A program made the translations under genes and the position numbers. A stretch of DNA of 36,364 nt from an uncultured Oscillospiraceae bacterium (GTDB lineage: Bacteria; Bacillota; Clostridia; Oscillospirales; Oscillospiraceae): positions 1-36,364 of the forward strand of contig CANQVL010000029.1 of the NCBI GenBank assembly GCA_947627285.1. Reading direction: 5' to 3'. Shown in pieces: positions 3,084 to 8,782 of the stretch. The stretch's first letter is position 1. Each line of letters starts with the position of its first letter. Below the pieces are notes generated by a model, which made no database searches, was not told the DNA's origin, and saw only the letters and a list, made by a program, of their open reading frames with translations.

Positions 3084-3893
3084 ATGTCATTTTGTGAATT
3101 CATATCAAATCTCATAGCTCACGAAAAGAGTCCGGGGACGGTGGAGAAGTACAGCCGCGACGTGTCCCGGTTCCTGCGTGAGACGGGCGGCTCCGCGCTG
3201 AGCCGCGAGACCGTGGCGGCGTGGCGGGATTCGCTCACCGCCCGGGGGTACAGCGCCGTGACGGTGAACTCCATGCTCTCCGCCGTCAACAGATACCTCG
3301 CGTTCATCGGCGAGGACGGCTGCCGGGCGAGCTTCCTCAGCGTCCAGCGCCGGGTCTTTCGGGCGAAGGAGCGGGAGCTGACGCGCGAGGAGTACGAACG
3401 CCTCCTCGCCGCCGCGCCGGAGAGGACGGGGCTCATCATGGAGACTGTCTGCGCCACGGGGATCCGCGTTTCGGAGCTGCGATACATCACCGTTGAAGCC
3501 GCCCGGAGCGGCTGCGCGGAGATACGCTTAAAGGGCAAGATCCGCACGATCCTACTCCCCGGAAAGCTGTGCCGAAAGCTGCTCAAGTATGCCAAAAAGC
3601 AGAAAACCGTCTCCGGCGAGATATTCCTCACCGGAAACGGAAAGCCCCTGACGCGGGGTCAAATATGGGCTGAAATGAAAGCGGTGTGCAAAAAAGCGGG
3701 GGTGGACCCGCGAAAGGTCTTCCCCCACAATTTAAGACACTTATTTGCCCGGACATTTTACCGCGTCACCCGCGACATCGCAAAGCTGGCGGACGTGCTG
3801 GGTCACAGCTCCATCGAAACCACCCGTATCTATCTAATATCCACCGGCGAGGAACACGCGCGGGTGCTGGACCGGTTGGGGCTTGTAAGTTAG
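3084..3893 (+). CDS. Tyrosine recombinase (XerC/D-like), probable DNA invertase of the adjacent switch
   Basis: A 269-residue lambda-integrase-type recombinase. The N-terminal SAM-like core-binding domain occupies about 1-90, with the catalytic domain after it. The catalytic set is complete: Arg128 in ATGIRVSEL, Lys150 or Lys152, His215 and Arg218 in HNLRH, His241 in LGHSS, Tyr250 in RIYL. It is short and lacks the arm-binding domain of phage integrases, like recombinases that work at simple core sites. A strong GGGAGG precedes the ATG by 8 nt. The stop codon TAG at 3891-3893 abuts an inverted repeat whose partner lies 243 bp downstream, just before a surface-protein operon. Context therefore suggests a dedicated phase-variation invertase rather than a chromosome-dimer XerD or a phage integrase. 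Activity on the repeats is inferred, not shown. Confidence 0.85.
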   Translation: MSFCEFISNLIAHEKSPGTVEKYSRDVSRFLRETGGSALSRETVAAWRDSLTARGYSAVTVNSMLSAVNRYLAFIGEDGCRASFLSVQRRVFRAKERELTREEYERLLAAAPERTGLIMETVCATGIRVSELRYITVEAARSGCAEIRLKGKIRTILLPGKLCRKLLKYAKKQKTVSGEIFLTGNGKPLTRGQIWAEMKAVCKKAGVDPRKVFPHNLRHLFARTFYRVTRDIAKLADVLGHSSIETTRIYLISTGEEHARVLDRLGLVS

Positions 3894-3982
3894 GACAAAA
3901 TTTCTATTTTGTATCCTACATAAAATTATTTTTAGGGCACTAATGCCCTATACAAACAGATTTTATCACGGAGGGAACGAAA

Positions 3983-4006
3983 TGTAAAGTCGTTTGACAA
4001 AGAAAA
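3983..4006 (+). repeat. Direct repeat motif, copy 2 (TGTAAAGTC..TTGACAAA)
   Basis: Second copy of the motif at 2973-2996 (20 of 24 positions identical), here inside the invertible segment. Inversion would flip it relative to copy 1. Its GACAAA core loosely resembles the arms of the inverted repeats. No -10 lies at a usable distance from its TTGACA. Confidence 0.45.
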
Positions 4007-4030
4007 TAGCAAAAAATTGCACAATGAACA

Positions 4031-4061
4031 GGACCGCAAAACGAAAAAATTTCGTCGGTCC
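4031..4061. terminator. Terminator-like hairpin inside the invertible segment
   Basis: GGACCG (4031-4036) pairs with CGGTCC (4056-4061), and ACGAAA (4041-4046) pairs with TTTCGT (4050-4055) across a 3-nt loop, with a 4-nt bulge. The T-rich TTGTTGT follows on the plus strand, a weak U tract. It lies between the recombinase end and the promoter at 4114, so it could insulate the surface operon from recombinase transcripts in this orientation and, when flipped, from anything upstream. Confidence 0.45.
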
Positions 4062-4113
4062 TTGTTGTCGTTCCAAAATATGCCTACGTTCGCGCTTTTT
4101 CGACGGCGACGAG

Positions 4114-4122
4114 TGTTATACT
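4114..4122 (+). promoter_or_regulatory. Extended -10 promoter (TGTTATACT) facing the surface operon
   Basis: TG at 4114-4115 followed by TATACT at 4117-4122 fits the extended -10 consensus TGnTATAAT, which can work without a good -35; none is seen. Transcription would begin near 4129, cross the right inverted repeat and enter the gene at 4248. It lies inside the inverted-repeat-bounded segment and so would point away from the surface genes after inversion. In the orientation sequenced here the operon should be ON. Confidence 0.55.
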
Positions 4123-4247
4123 TTTAGACGAACAAGACAAAATAGAAATTTTGTCTTGAGCGCCATGGAAGGAGGCGGTGCGCGACAGCGGGGCGGGAAT
4201 ATTATATTTCTGAATCCAAAATGAATTGCAAAAAGGAGGTTATTTTA

Positions 4248-5816
4248 ATGAAACGCAAAATCTTTTCAGCGGTGCTGGCGCTTGTCATGCTTCTGACCCT
4301 GGCGCCCATGGCGTTCGCGACTGAGGAAACGGACGAGCCGGTTGTCATTCTGCCTGACGGGACGAAGGTGGTGGGGATACCAACCATCGACGAACCGAAA
4401 ACGAGGAGCGCAGAGCAAACCGTCTACACCATCAACAACGAGGCGGATTTGGACGCACTTCTCGGCACTGCAAATGAAGCGAAATGGGTTGCCGGTGATA
4501 TATTTGAGATTACCGGAAACCTGAATCTGGAAGACCTGTATAAGAAATATAATCCAGCAAACTATGCAGGCCTTATCAATTTCTTTTACGGCACAATCCG
4601 GGGCGTCGCGGACGCTGACGGGAATTACCCCGTTATCAGCGGTATACCCAGCGGGAAAGGCCTTATCCGTTATCCCATTGGTGGTACTATCGAGAATCTG
4701 ACCTTTGATCACGGAACAAGGACACCCTTTATTACCGTTCTTGCCGGTTCTTTCGGGTCTGGGAGAGAGGTCCAGACGCTTACATTTAACAATATCACCG
4801 TTGTCGGTGATAAAACAGTCCCGACCTTAGTACCGTCAAACTATTCGCCGTTTGTTTACACTTGCCCCTCCAGCGGCATTATCATGAATAATTGCGTAAA
4901 TAAAATCAAGATGTACGGCAATGCGTACAGCAGCATATTCTTTGGTTATTATCCCGCTTATGTCAATTCCGGTGGCGTTGATGTAGCGGATAAAATGCAG
5001 ATCGAATTCAGAAACTGCGTGAACGAAGGAAGCCTTACCACCAACCGGGCGGGTATGTTCTTCGGCAACTCCACAGGGCTTGACAATTACATTGGCAAGG
5101 TCAAGTTGGTGATCGAGGGTTGCAAAAATAACGGTTCGATTCTTGGCTTTTCCAGCGCCAATTACCTGTGCGCCGCCGCAGCTCAGGACGGAGAATACAA
5201 TCCCGGTAACCCGTCGGATATTATCGAGCAGATTTTAGCTGGAACAGCCAGCGAGGAAGACGCGGCAAAATATCCGAACATTAAAGCCGTCTCACGCGGT
5301 ACGAACGGGAAATTGGGAACTGCGGATAAGCTCGCAGGTTTTGAAGCTCATTGGAACGCCAATAATACGATTACCTTTACTCCTGCGACGAGCGGAAGTC
5401 AAGTTGCCAAATATACAATCAACGTGGGAGCATATCTAAATGCATGGGATACAAGCAAAAACAGATTTTCTGGCACAACACTTTACGTTGTCAATGAGGA
5501 GATTACTCCTGAAGAAATAGGAGATCAAACTGAAGTAACGGCAGAGCTGATGGCATACGGCTTTGCAAACAGCGATTTTGGCGATCCCGGCGGCACTTTA
5601 GGCGACTATCTCTTGCGTGAAGGCGATGGCAACAAATACTATGAGATTGATAATGATAATGATAATATTTTCAAGTATTATGCGTCGGGAGAATTGGGGA
5701 GCGATGGTCAGCCGCTTAACAATGGGGCGGTTCCTCCATACGTTGTCATAGTTACAGCCTATGGTACGGATGGCGGCATATTGCAGTCTGATTGGATCAC
5801 TAAACCGGAGGCGTAA
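4248..5816 (+). CDS. Exported protein of unknown function, likely beta-helix/beta-solenoid
   Basis: The start is set at the ATG at 4248, preceded by AAAGGAGG at 8 nt, rather than the in-frame ATG at 4221. This gives 522 residues beginning with a clear Sec signal peptide: MKRK, a hydrophobic core, and cleavage after AFA at residue 24. The mature protein has many short beta-type segments rich in Gly, Asn, Thr and Ile, with phrases such as FYGTIRGVADADGNYPVIS and ENLTFDHG that resemble right-handed beta-helix (GLUG-like) turns. No SLH, LPXTG or lipobox anchor was seen, so it may be released or bind its partner encoded 2 nt downstream. Base composition is less GC-rich than the surroundings. It probably functions at the cell surface; no enzyme motif was recognised. 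Confidence 0.75.
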   Translation: MKRKIFSAVLALVMLLTLAPMAFATEETDEPVVILPDGTKVVGIPTIDEPKTRSAEQTVYTINNEADLDALLGTANEAKWVAGDIFEITGNLNLEDLYKKYNPANYAGLINFFYGTIRGVADADGNYPVISGIPSGKGLIRYPIGGTIENLTFDHGTRTPFITVLAGSFGSGREVQTLTFNNITVVGDKTVPTLVPSNYSPFVYTCPSSGIIMNNCVNKIKMYGNAYSSIFFGYYPAYVNSGGVDVADKMQIEFRNCVNEGSLTTNRAGMFFGNSTGLDNYIGKVKLVIEGCKNNGSILGFSSANYLCAAAAQDGEYNPGNPSDIIEQILAGTASEEDAAKYPNIKAVSRGTNGKLGTADKLAGFEAHWNANNTITFTPATSGSQVAKYTINVGAYLNAWDTSKNRFSGTTLYVVNEEITPEEIGDQTEVTAELMAYGFANSDFGDPGGTLGDYLLREGDGNKYYEIDNDNDNIFKYYASGELGSDGQPLNNGAVPPYVVIVTAYGTDGGILQSDWITKPEA

Positions 5817-5818
5817 TA

Positions 5819-8782
5819 ATGAAAAAATTCTTCATGAGGCCGATAGCTGTCCTTGCTTTGCTTGCGGTTCTGCTTGTTTCTCTTGTCCCCTCCGCGCTTG
5901 CCAATTCTGAAACTCAAACTGGAAACGGAAGAATTTCCATTAGTTGCAAGTATGAAAGGTATGCGCTTTCAGCTAATGACCAAGACGGCCAGAGAGATGA
6001 AAACATAACGCGTACATTAAATGATACGGAAAAGAAGAAAAATACAGTTCGGACAATCACTCTGAAAGTGCATAATTTGCAGGATGTCTTAGAAAGCCTT
6101 GCGAATGGGGTGTACACGGACGAGTGGACAAATCAGTCAGGAAAATGGAAATCTACAGAATATGTCATTAACATGGACGCTCCCGTTTCAATCAAATTAG
6201 AGAATATAAGCACAGAGAAATACGCAAGTATTGTTAACGAGATCAATAAGAAGGTCGTTTTCACCGGAGAGCAGCAAGAAGCTGAGATCGCCGCAGTTGA
6301 CGAAGAAGACGTTATTAAAATTTATAACGGCAGCTCGGAAGGAATAACGATTTCAAGCTACTCGACAGACAGTACCCATCCCGTGCTCGACAATCCTCCG
6401 GCGGACAACAAGATCATATTCTCAAAAGGCCTTGAAGTCACGGGCGGCGCCGTGGTCAACTTTGAAACAAATGGTCTTCCTAATAATTTGTCGACCACAC
6501 ACCGTCTCACGATTGAGGTAGGGGATCAGTCCAACGCCAATTCGGAGCTTAATGTAAACAGCGGAACGCTGAATATCAACGGACTTGAAACTTACCTTGG
6601 CACAAACTACGAGGATAAGGAAGGATACTCCTGGCTCTCCAGCATGTATCTGGTCCTCAACAACGGAGCGTCTGTGAAAATAGGTGAGAACGGTGCGGTC
6701 ACGCTTTCTGGTGCGCAGGTGGAGAACGCCGACATAACCGTCGCAAGTTCCGGCACGTTGACAGTCAAGGATGCTGATGGTTCCGCTAATAAAAAAGTTC
6801 CTTCCAACGTTACGGCCGTCAATGGCTCCCCCGCCGTCAAGTGCGAGAAAGGCTCCAGCCTGACCATCACAGGCAACAGCGCCGTCAAGAGCACCGGGAC
6901 AAAGGCCGTGGAGCTTGAACCCGGCGCGAAAGTGACCACTGACGCCGTGAAGGACCTGACCGTGGCGGAGGACATGGAAGAGGCGTATGTAGACAACGCG
7001 GGAAATGTTATCCAGAAGGCCGACAAGAACGATTTGCCAGCTTTTATGGAGCCGACAGAGGCGAAGGGTACTTTAGCAAGCGGTGTCGAGGACACGGGCA
7101 ACAAGTTGCAAGAGGCCGCAGGAAATGTCGGCGCTGAGCTTCCCACAGACGCGCAGACCGCCGCCGCCCATGAATGGGCTCACGACAAGGCTGACGAGGC
7201 GAAGGAAGCGCTGGATAGCGCTGATGAGGATGTCAACATTTACGTCCTGACCACCGTAAAAACTGAGGTGGAGAATTTCATAGCTGACACCGCCATGACG
7301 CTGGACATCACGCCCTATTATGAGGTCATCGCCACCACAGCGGATAAAAAGGACGATATACACCTCGAAGGAGAGAGCGGGCAGGAGAAAAACGCAGTCC
7401 TGTTGAGTGAAAAGGAACTTGTAGTAAATGAACCTGTCCAAATGACGATTCCCATTCCGGATACCCTATACTCCACCGGTGGTGTAGGCGAGAAAACGCC
7501 GAGCTTTGTGGTCCTCCACAAGCATAATGGAAATGTCTATCTCTATCACGCGACATATAGCTCTACCGGCTCTGGTGGTTTAGGCGCGCATATCACATTT
7601 ACCAACGAGCACGGCTTTTCCGAGTTTACCGTCATCGTCGTGAGGCAGGGCAATCTCTCAAATCTGACCGCCTCCGATGGAACTATGGAGACGTTTGACC
7701 CCAGCAAGGCAGTAAAGTCCTACACCGTCAACGTCCCCTACAGCGTTTCCAATCTGACCCTCACCGCGACGGCGGCGGTAAAGGGCGATACGGTCACGGC
7801 GAAGATGGGCGACAGCGATTTGGAGCCCGTCAAGGACACCACCGTTGCCGACAAAGATGTTTACACGATTTCCGTTTCCGACCTTGAGGTTGGCAAGAAC
7901 ACCGTCACTATCACGGTGACGCACGGCAGCGGTGATCCCACCACCTACACCGTCACCATCGTTCGCGCGGCGTATGTGCCGCCTGCTTACTCTGTGAAGG
8001 CTGAGGCGGCGGAGAACGCAGAGGTCAAGCTTTCCGCCACGAGCGCGGCGGCGGGGAGCAAGGTCACCGTTACGGTCACAGCAGGTGAGAACTACCACGT
8101 CTCCGGGCTCACTGTCACCGGCGCAAACGGAAAGACCGTTGATGTCACGGACAATGAGGACGGAACCTACACCTTCACCATGCCTGCCTCCAACGTCACC
8201 GTCGCGGCTGAGGTCTACGAGTGCCCGTCGCTGGCGTTCCCCGACATCGACTTGACGGAATGGTATCACGAATACGTGGACTACGCCATAGCCCACAACC
8301 TCATGCGCGGCATTGACGTGGGCGTGTTCGCCCCCGAAAAGACCGTCACCCGCGCGGAAATGGCAGGTATCCTCTGGAACCTTGAGGGTCAACCCGTTGT
8401 CGACTACGAGAACCCCTTCCCCGACGTGCCCGCAAACGAGTGGTACACCGAGGCGATCCGCTGGGCGGCGAGCGTGGAGGTCGTCAGCGGCTGCGGCGAC
8501 GGGACGTTTAAGCCGGAGGAGAATATCAACCGCGAGCAGATGGCGGCGATGCTGTACTTCTACGAGCAGAAGATCGGCTCCGGCGGATTCGCGGCAGACG
8601 AGACCTTTGAGTTGACCTTCGACGACGCCTCTGCCGTCTCCGATTGGGCGCGGGAGGCTGTGGCCTGGTGCACCATGAAGGGCGTCATCACGGGCAGCGA
8701 GAACAAATTTAACCCCGCCAACACAGCCAAGAGGTCGGATCTGGCGACTATACTCTCCCTCTACGACCAGTTGGCAAAATAA
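5819..8782 (+). CDS. SLH-anchored multidomain surface protein
   Basis: 987 residues. A Sec signal peptide ends after SALA (residue 28). Residues about 30-600 form a Thr/Ser/Asn-rich beta-type region without a recognised family. Residues about 611-717 match a cadherin-like beta-sandwich (LSNLTASDG to YTVTIVRA). Residues about 723-800 match a divergent InlB B-repeat (the phrase TMPASNVTVAAEV is typical). Three S-layer homology domains follow from about 803 to the end, each with the FPDI/V-W-A pattern, which would bind secondary cell-wall polymer. GGAGG precedes the ATG, and the gene starts 2 nt after the previous stop, so the two are translationally coupled. Domains imply an adhesin or S-layer-associated protein. 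The N-terminal half is AT-richer than the SLH end, suggesting a mosaic origin. The ligand is unknown. Confidence 0.9.
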   Translation: MKKFFMRPIAVLALLAVLLVSLVPSALANSETQTGNGRISISCKYERYALSANDQDGQRDENITRTLNDTEKKKNTVRTITLKVHNLQDVLESLANGVYTDEWTNQSGKWKSTEYVINMDAPVSIKLENISTEKYASIVNEINKKVVFTGEQQEAEIAAVDEEDVIKIYNGSSEGITISSYSTDSTHPVLDNPPADNKIIFSKGLEVTGGAVVNFETNGLPNNLSTTHRLTIEVGDQSNANSELNVNSGTLNINGLETYLGTNYEDKEGYSWLSSMYLVLNNGASVKIGENGAVTLSGAQVENADITVASSGTLTVKDADGSANKKVPSNVTAVNGSPAVKCEKGSSLTITGNSAVKSTGTKAVELEPGAKVTTDAVKDLTVAEDMEEAYVDNAGNVIQKADKNDLPAFMEPTEAKGTLASGVEDTGNKLQEAAGNVGAELPTDAQTAAAHEWAHDKADEAKEALDSADEDVNIYVLTTVKTEVENFIADTAMTLDITPYYEVIATTADKKDDIHLEGESGQEKNAVLLSEKELVVNEPVQMTIPIPDTLYSTGGVGEKTPSFVVLHKHNGNVYLYHATYSSTGSGGLGAHITFTNEHGFSEFTVIVVRQGNLSNLTASDGTMETFDPSKAVKSYTVNVPYSVSNLTLTATAAVKGDTVTAKMGDSDLEPVKDTTVADKDVYTISVSDLEVGKNTVTITVTHGSGDPTTYTVTIVRAAYVPPAYSVKAEAAENAEVKLSATSAAAGSKVTVTVTAGENYHVSGLTVTGANGKTVDVTDNEDGTYTFTMPASNVTVAAEVYECPSLAFPDIDLTEWYHEYVDYAIAHNLMRGIDVGVFAPEKTVTRAEMAGILWNLEGQPVVDYENPFPDVPANEWYTEAIRWAASVEVVSGCGDGTFKPEENINREQMAAMLYFYEQKIGSGGFAADETFELTFDDASAVSDWAREAVAWCTMKGVITGSENKFNPANTAKRSDLATILSLYDQLAK

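Follow-up and report, generated by a model that had tools for sequence, protein, structure and literature searches.

A probable recombinase-linked promoter-inversion switch ahead of an SLH surface-protein operon, one of 16 related cassettes in an Oscillospiraceae genome

The genome of an uncultured Oscillospiraceae bacterium (2.81 Mb in 95 contigs) probably encodes a self-contained, fim-like promoter-inversion switch ahead of a surface-protein operon, one of 16 such cassettes. The locus was analysed in contig C29, all 36,364 nucleotides of which are referred to here as the window. A previous reading, made from the sequence only, had proposed a recombinase-linked invertible promoter for the surface operon. 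We retain this as the best explanation, but that reading probably took the wrong sequence for the promoter and assigned it the wrong direction.

In the mechanism that we propose, the recombinase encoded at 3084-3893 would bind 18-bp dyad sites in both arms of an inverted repeat. Strand exchange across the central overlap, including TTCT, would then invert the 224-bp segment. As sequenced, the sole recognised promoter of the segment points left, and the operon for the exported and SLH proteins would be OFF; once inverted, the segment would have its promoter directed across the right arm at the operon, which would then be transcribed (ON). Because their central overlaps differ, most cassettes would be unable to recombine with one another, and SLH and pilin-like surface proteins could be switched independently. 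The kind of switch is known already; what is new is the number of cassettes per genome, the overlap pattern and the division of targets between SLH and pilin-like proteins, for none of which did we find a description in those parts of the literature that were searched. The search also returned no literature on DNA inversion of type IV pilin with phase variation in Clostridia.

Organization of the locus

The features of the locus, in window coordinates, are as follows.

3084..3893, plus strand: tyrosine recombinase, 269 aa, XerC/D-like (Pfam PF00589, E 6.7e-25; PF02899)
3894..3912: left inverted-repeat arm, starting right behind the recombinase stop codon
3895-3912: left-arm 18-bp dyad, ACAAAAT-TTCT-ATTTTGT
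3913..4136: candidate invertible segment, 224 bp, bounded by the arms (segments of other cassettes occur both ways round)
3988-3960, minus strand: segment promoter-like sequence TTTACA-17-TGATAAAAT, pointing left at the recombinase
4027..4066: conserved hairpin AGGACCG...CGGTCCT, about -16.6 kcal/mol
4114..4122, plus strand: extended -10 element TGTTATACT of the sequence-only reading, without a -35, probably not the switch promoter
4137..4155: right inverted-repeat arm, the reverse complement of the left arm
4137-4154: right-arm dyad, ACAAAAT-AGAA-ATTTTGT
4248..5816, plus strand: exported protein, 522 aa, with a signal peptide-like N-terminus
5819..8782, plus strand: SLH-domain surface protein, 987 aa, with three SLH stretches and Cadherin-like and Flg_new_2 domains (Pfam)

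The arms, of 19 nt each, are 100% complementary and separated by 224 nt. Among perfect inverted matches of 16 nt or longer whose starts lie 100-500 bp apart, this is the only one in the window, and none arose in 200 dinucleotide shuffles of the window. The inverted repeat is not due to chance, as had been argued when the perfect 19-bp repeat around 224 bp was first noticed. The neighbourhood was also described correctly at that time: the recombinase ORF, said to end at the left repeat, stops one base ahead of the arm, and the exported and SLH genes, placed about 90 bp beyond the right repeat, begin at an ATG (4248) that lies 92 bp past it.

Each arm consists of an 18-bp dyad with a 7-4-7 arrangement (ACAAAAT-N4-ATTTTGT), a form typical of the core sites of tyrosine recombinases. 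The dyads in the two arms are the sole sites in the window that score at least 15/17. A stretch of 23 nt on the 5' side of the recombinase gene (2973-2995) is an 87% identical direct copy of positions 3983-4005 of the segment, and is perhaps the remnant of an older cassette.

The recombinase

Phage_integrase and N-terminal SAM-like domains were identified in the recombinase (Pfam), and its closest solved structures are XerC-like 4a8e and XerD 1a0p. R128, K152, H215, R218, H241 and Y250, which we take to be the catalytic set, are each present in 144 or 145 of the 145 aligned relatives (three of the 148 were omitted from the alignment as short or interrupted). The NCBIfam equivalog models for XerD and XerC were not matched at their cut-offs (108.8 bits against 329.6 and 102.4 bits against 335.15, respectively). 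Because these scores are so far under the cut-offs, we treat the protein as belonging to a putative separate Xer-like family, and as the predicted catalyst of inversion at this locus.

A family of cassettes

Elsewhere in the source genome the recombinase has 17 matches, of which 15 reach at least 43% identity. Counting the window's, 16 cassettes were recognised in this genome, and an inverted repeat lies behind every recombinase, the weakest (C70) at 12 nt. Eleven of the cassettes have a dyad of the window's type. The other five, which have ACATTAT-N4-ATAATGT, are located ahead of pilin-like genes. Relatives of the recombinase at E <=1e-40 occur in 19 of 34 genomes of the genus, the source genome included, and relatives at E <=1e-60 in 98 of 300 genomes sampled from the family (at most 8 candidates scored per genome). 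Judging by record titles, the 80 loci retained from GTDB belong mostly to Oscillospiraceae or to further Clostridia, a few lying outside these groups (e.g., Eggerthellaceae).

The set that we compared comprises 148 distinct cassettes: 16 from the source genome, 57 from the genus and 75 from GTDB. The genus loci are 57 of 63 matches outside the source genome, those left out being G009:C105 and two pieces of G019:C92, all broken or incomplete, and L198-L200, whose recombinases are partial. From GTDB 123 loci were confirmed and 80 retained, of which five were then removed as duplicates of genus loci.

Inverted repeats were sought just downstream of the recombinase in 120 testable cassettes, the other 28 having too little downstream sequence. 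A repeat score of at least 14 was reached in 104 of the 120; the controls gave 3 among 117 upstream regions and none among 120 shuffles. With the threshold at 12, the counts were 111/120 for the cassettes, 4/117 upstream and 3/120 in shuffles. From end to end, most arm pairs are separated by about 180-420 bp. The 112 segments considered below are those with a score of at least 12, plus a manually included C27b; segment boundaries were placed manually for both C56 and C27b. An 18-bp dyad pair behind a Xer-like gene may serve as a signature for finding switches in genomes that come without reads.

Contigs end within 300 bp past the recombinase stop at 27 of 152 loci, and within 300 bp ahead of its start at one of 152 (this count still includes four duplicate loci, none of them among the 27). 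Nine of these 27 contig ends have a dyad scoring at least 14 in their final 130 bp, compared with 6 of 445 control windows, and three of the 27 contigs (G021_C74, G018_C42 and L123) end at or within the recombinase gene. Mixed orientation would produce contig breaks behind the recombinase, and so would repeats. We rejected contig ends as sole proof of flipping, since repeated cassettes break assemblies too.

A candidate segment promoter that faces the recombinase

The promoter-like sequence at 3988-3960 on the minus strand combines TTTACA, a 17-nt spacer and TAAAAT with an extended -10 TG, and matches the consensus at 10 of 12 hexamer positions. A -35/-10 scan of the window's segment, which requires a -35 and is blind to -10-only promoters, gave a score of 11.5 leftward and 0 rightward and detected no rightward promoter. 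When 15 segments were aligned, most of the leftward hexamer positions fell among the conserved columns, and the spacer between the hexamers was found to vary. The promoter is called from this conservation and from its match to the consensus. Because the pair points at the recombinase, we consider that the locus was most likely sequenced in the OFF state. Inversion of the segment would place the -10 about 158 nt ahead of the ATG at 4248 (computed).

The sequence-only reading had instead assigned the switch promoter to the outward extended -10 at 4114-4122, with the locus sequenced ON. This element does exist, a scan that requires a -35 could not have detected it, and G020 has an intact counterpart (TGCTATACT) at the same place. 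However, the window and G020 are the only two of the 15 aligned cassettes in which the element is intact; it is altered in G015:C32 and G033:C2 and unrecognisable in the remaining 11, whereas the leftward pair is largely conserved. In addition, cassettes of the source genome in which the segment is reversed (C33, C40, C56 and C27b) have a strong promoter facing the genes. We rejected the rightward element as the switch promoter despite the copy in G020, and consider it unlikely that the locus was sequenced ON with transcription from TGTTATACT.

Across the family, the best promoter points left in 76 of the 112 segments and right in 18, with two ties and none detected in 16, and a promoter score of at least 10 was obtained on 86 of 224 segment strands, compared with 7% of mononucleotide shuffles. 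Within the source genome the promoter is directed toward the genes in the four cassettes named above and away from them in the other 12, including the window's. It is plausible that the leftward promoter could exert antisense control of the recombinase.

Also present is a terminator-like hairpin inside the recombinase gene, in antisense (window 3640-3607, minus strand). Hairpins of this sort are expected by chance as well. It could halt a leftward transcript from the OFF-state promoter.

The hairpin within the segment (4027-4066) is possibly a terminator or insulator, and brings to mind a different switch, in which the operon would be transcribed from the recombinase promoter and the hairpin would stop transcription in one orientation. 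Such a terminator mechanism has been proposed for cwpV of C. difficile (in the portion of PMC2784873 available to us), and both the conservation of the hairpin and the collinearity of recombinase and operon would suit it. However, the hairpin folds almost equally well on the two strands (-16.6 and -17.4 kcal/mol), and is thus not clearly orientation-specific, and a terminator scan listed no site at 4027-4066. Furthermore, the segment contains a promoter-like pair with a largely conserved -35 and extended -10, in one direction only. We consider a terminator switch quite unlikely and favour inversion of a promoter.

Orientation of related segments

Among 123 alignable segment pairs 102 are collinear and 21 inverted; on reading they form four clusters, and the pairs are not independent. 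The interiors of cassettes C1 and C37 of G015 are 96.7% identical when one is inverted and 50.8% identical when compared directly, and their flanks match at 94.4% on the left and 95.0/91.3% on the right. Cassettes C33 and C37 of the source genome have interiors that are 92.8% identical in reverse, with right flanks at 92-96% and left flanks at just 53%. In the inverted pairs G013/G019 and G013/G025 the left flank alone aligns. Judged from these alignments, paralogous cassettes with matching flanks exist in opposite orientations.

No inverted version of the window's own segment was found among its closest interior relatives (C1a, C1b, C26, C27a, C10 and C31 of the source genome, and copies in G015, G020 and G033). 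A search of the source genome with the segment returned six matches, none inverted relative to its recombinase. The sequence-only reading had proposed that related genomes be searched for reversed copies, and held that one orientation in all of them, together with a lack of inverted reads, would count against a switch. For this locus the outcome goes partly that way: the two orthologous operons that were found, G015:C13 and G033:C2, share the window's orientation, whereas paralogues occur in both. We infer that the segment flips at the window's locus.

Central overlaps of the putative recombination sites

The central 4 bp of the dyads were compared between arms in 96 cassettes, which reduce to 87 distinct site pairs. 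Dyads were located in each arm independently by their outer bases, with the central bases unused. Over these 87 cassettes we found 50 different central sequences, yet the two arms agree with each other in 85 of the cassettes. Agreement expected with right arms shuffled among cassettes is 3.2 of 87 (maximum 10 in 1000 shuffles). At each central position the arms mismatch in 1-2 of 87 cassettes, and immediately outside the dyad they do so in at least 26 of 87. The scarcity of mismatches in the outer bases of the dyad is partly built in by the search rule. Tyrosine recombinases require identical overlaps for strand exchange, and thus arm-identical overlaps are what is expected of working, locus-specific sites.

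These comparisons bear on whether the cassettes are relics that were copied around the genome, with repeats that no longer flip and orientation differences that record old events. The constant orientation of both orthologous loci would be in keeping with this, but the recombinase is intact, with its full set of catalytic residues, and paralogues as close as C1 and C37 of G015 differ in orientation. Agreement between arms at positions that are otherwise hypervariable suggests continuing exchange or selection. We regard the relic explanation as very unlikely.

There are 11 different overlaps among the 16 cassettes of the source genome. C1b, C26 and C27a have one in common, as do C27b and C56, and C11, C2 and C37. 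Because some cassettes of this genome have the same overlap, the claim that all cassettes are independent is weakened, and independence is predicted for most of them. Within genomes, interiors are at least 90% identical in 21 of 47 pairs with the same overlap vs 4 of 159 pairs with different overlaps, and in the same-overlap pairs that reach this identity the non-coding interiors resemble each other more closely than do the adjoining recombinase genes. C11 and C2 of the source genome have interiors that are 100% identical and recombinase genes that are 56% identical; the identity runs about 200 bp beyond the right arm and then falls. This pattern suggests that cassettes have exchanged sequence or undergone gene conversion with one another. 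Recent copying may explain many of the same-overlap pairs, but not C11 and C2.

We tentatively suggest, at somewhat less than even confidence, that the cassettes are orthogonal binary switches. A private overlap of 4 bp (or slightly more) would function as an address, so that a cassette flips itself only, and cassettes with a shared address would have their segments and leaders exchanged or homogenised. If this is correct, independent switching would be combined with promoter shuffling among surface genes. The overlap pattern predicts cross-talk upon swapping the 4 bp.

Another genome of the genus, G018, encodes 15 relatives of the recombinase. The interiors of its cassettes L190, L191, L192, L193 and L195, all ahead of pilin-like genes, are 100% identical. 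In the G018 pairs that were checked, DNA identity extends 200-300 bp past the right arm and then falls.

To the left of its promoter segment, cassette C56 of the source genome (L015) carries an additional dyad together with a 46-bp module; a module resembling it lies on the right in C27b (L013), in reverse. We do not claim a three-site shufflon for these cassettes, as both are at or near contig ends and could be assembly chimeras.

Comparison with known inversion systems

The layout (recombinase, invertible promoter, surface gene) is nearest to that of fimE-fimS-fimA, and not to that of cwpV. The E. coli system, as outlined in PMC2784873 and otherwise generally known, likewise has a promoter in a short invertible segment, an adjoining tyrosine recombinase gene and a gene for an adhesive structure downstream. 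Unlike in fim, here there are many cassettes per genome, each with its own recombinase, and the targets are SLH proteins or proteins with a prepilin motif.

Bacteroides fragilis has many invertible promoters of surface structures, with one master recombinase, Mpi, for many sites. The Oscillospiraceae genome resembles it in having many switches for surface structures, but here every cassette is paired with a recombinase of its own and, in many cases, with a private overlap.

The likeness to cwpV drawn in the sequence-only reading is loose. It applies insofar as both involve clostridial surface proteins under an inversion switch, the cell-wall protein CwpV being mostly OFF (PMC2784873, in part). 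The cwpV segment is 195 bp, between 21-bp imperfect repeats, and its recombinase, RecV, was found by testing candidate genes (same source). The cwpV promoter is outside the inverted region, whereas the window's promoter-like pair, as called from the consensus, is inside. Seven sites have been described in C. difficile, some of which require RecV, whose action is not confined to a single switch (PMC5903667, in part).

A closer relative may be inverton group 139, with 33 invertons, 32 of them in Clostridia, and with its most significant link to tyrosine invertase group 35 (PMC11892184, in part). An example in Intestinimonas butyriciproducens measures 255 or 257 bp, depending on which of two printed coordinate sets is used. 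Reads show its orientation shifting, and the reversed state was more frequent when cultures were attached to a surface (same source). Shared features are the occurrence in Clostridia, a tyrosine recombinase adjoining the inverton and a similar span, the comparison being one of size and class only. On this basis we infer that the window's cassettes could be of the group 139 family. The published coordinates of the Intestinimonas locus have no counterpart among the matches listed in our family sample. In its available portion, the account of group 139 makes no mention of 16 cassettes per genome, private overlaps, or SLH and pilin targets (PMC11892184).

Surface proteins as predicted targets of the cassettes

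The exported protein at 4248-5816 has no Pfam or NCBIfam match at E <=0.001. Its orthologues are 59% (G015:C13) and 74% (G033:C2) identical. SLH domains were identified in all six further tested targets of the window's dyad-type group (Pfam). Targets of the second dyad group have a prepilin N-methylation motif in three of three tested (Pfam), and all five of this group in the source genome match the prepilin pattern. By a simple heuristic, the ORFs downstream of the 112 segments divide into 28 pilin-like, 48 signal-like and 32 of neither kind, four segments having no ORF behind them; among 204 control ORFs from upstream, one is pilin-like and 34 are signal-like.

These targets also argue against the sites being attachment sites of a mobile element or integrase (prophage or integron-like) that has no regulatory role. 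A XerC/D-type recombinase with copies dispersed in the genome could be read in this way, and the NCBIfam XerA and integron integrase models also score on it, under their cut-offs. However, the sites are inverted and not direct, and at mostly ~180-420 bp they are too close together for a typical element. The downstream ORF is exported-like or pilin-like in 76 of the 108 segments that have one (by the same simple heuristic), and the gene upstream of the window's recombinase encodes an alpha-amylase (Pfam). We regard a mobile element as extremely unlikely.

If a promoter switch is the correct explanation, one gut bacterium could present very many combinations of SLH and pilin-like proteins. Each element of a combination would be set by its own recombinase and not by one master enzyme.

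Three further genes of the source genome (G000), on contigs C78, C91 and C92, encode a prepilin motif similar to the one in the pilins of the cassettes. These genes may belong to further cassettes, in which case 16 is a lower bound.
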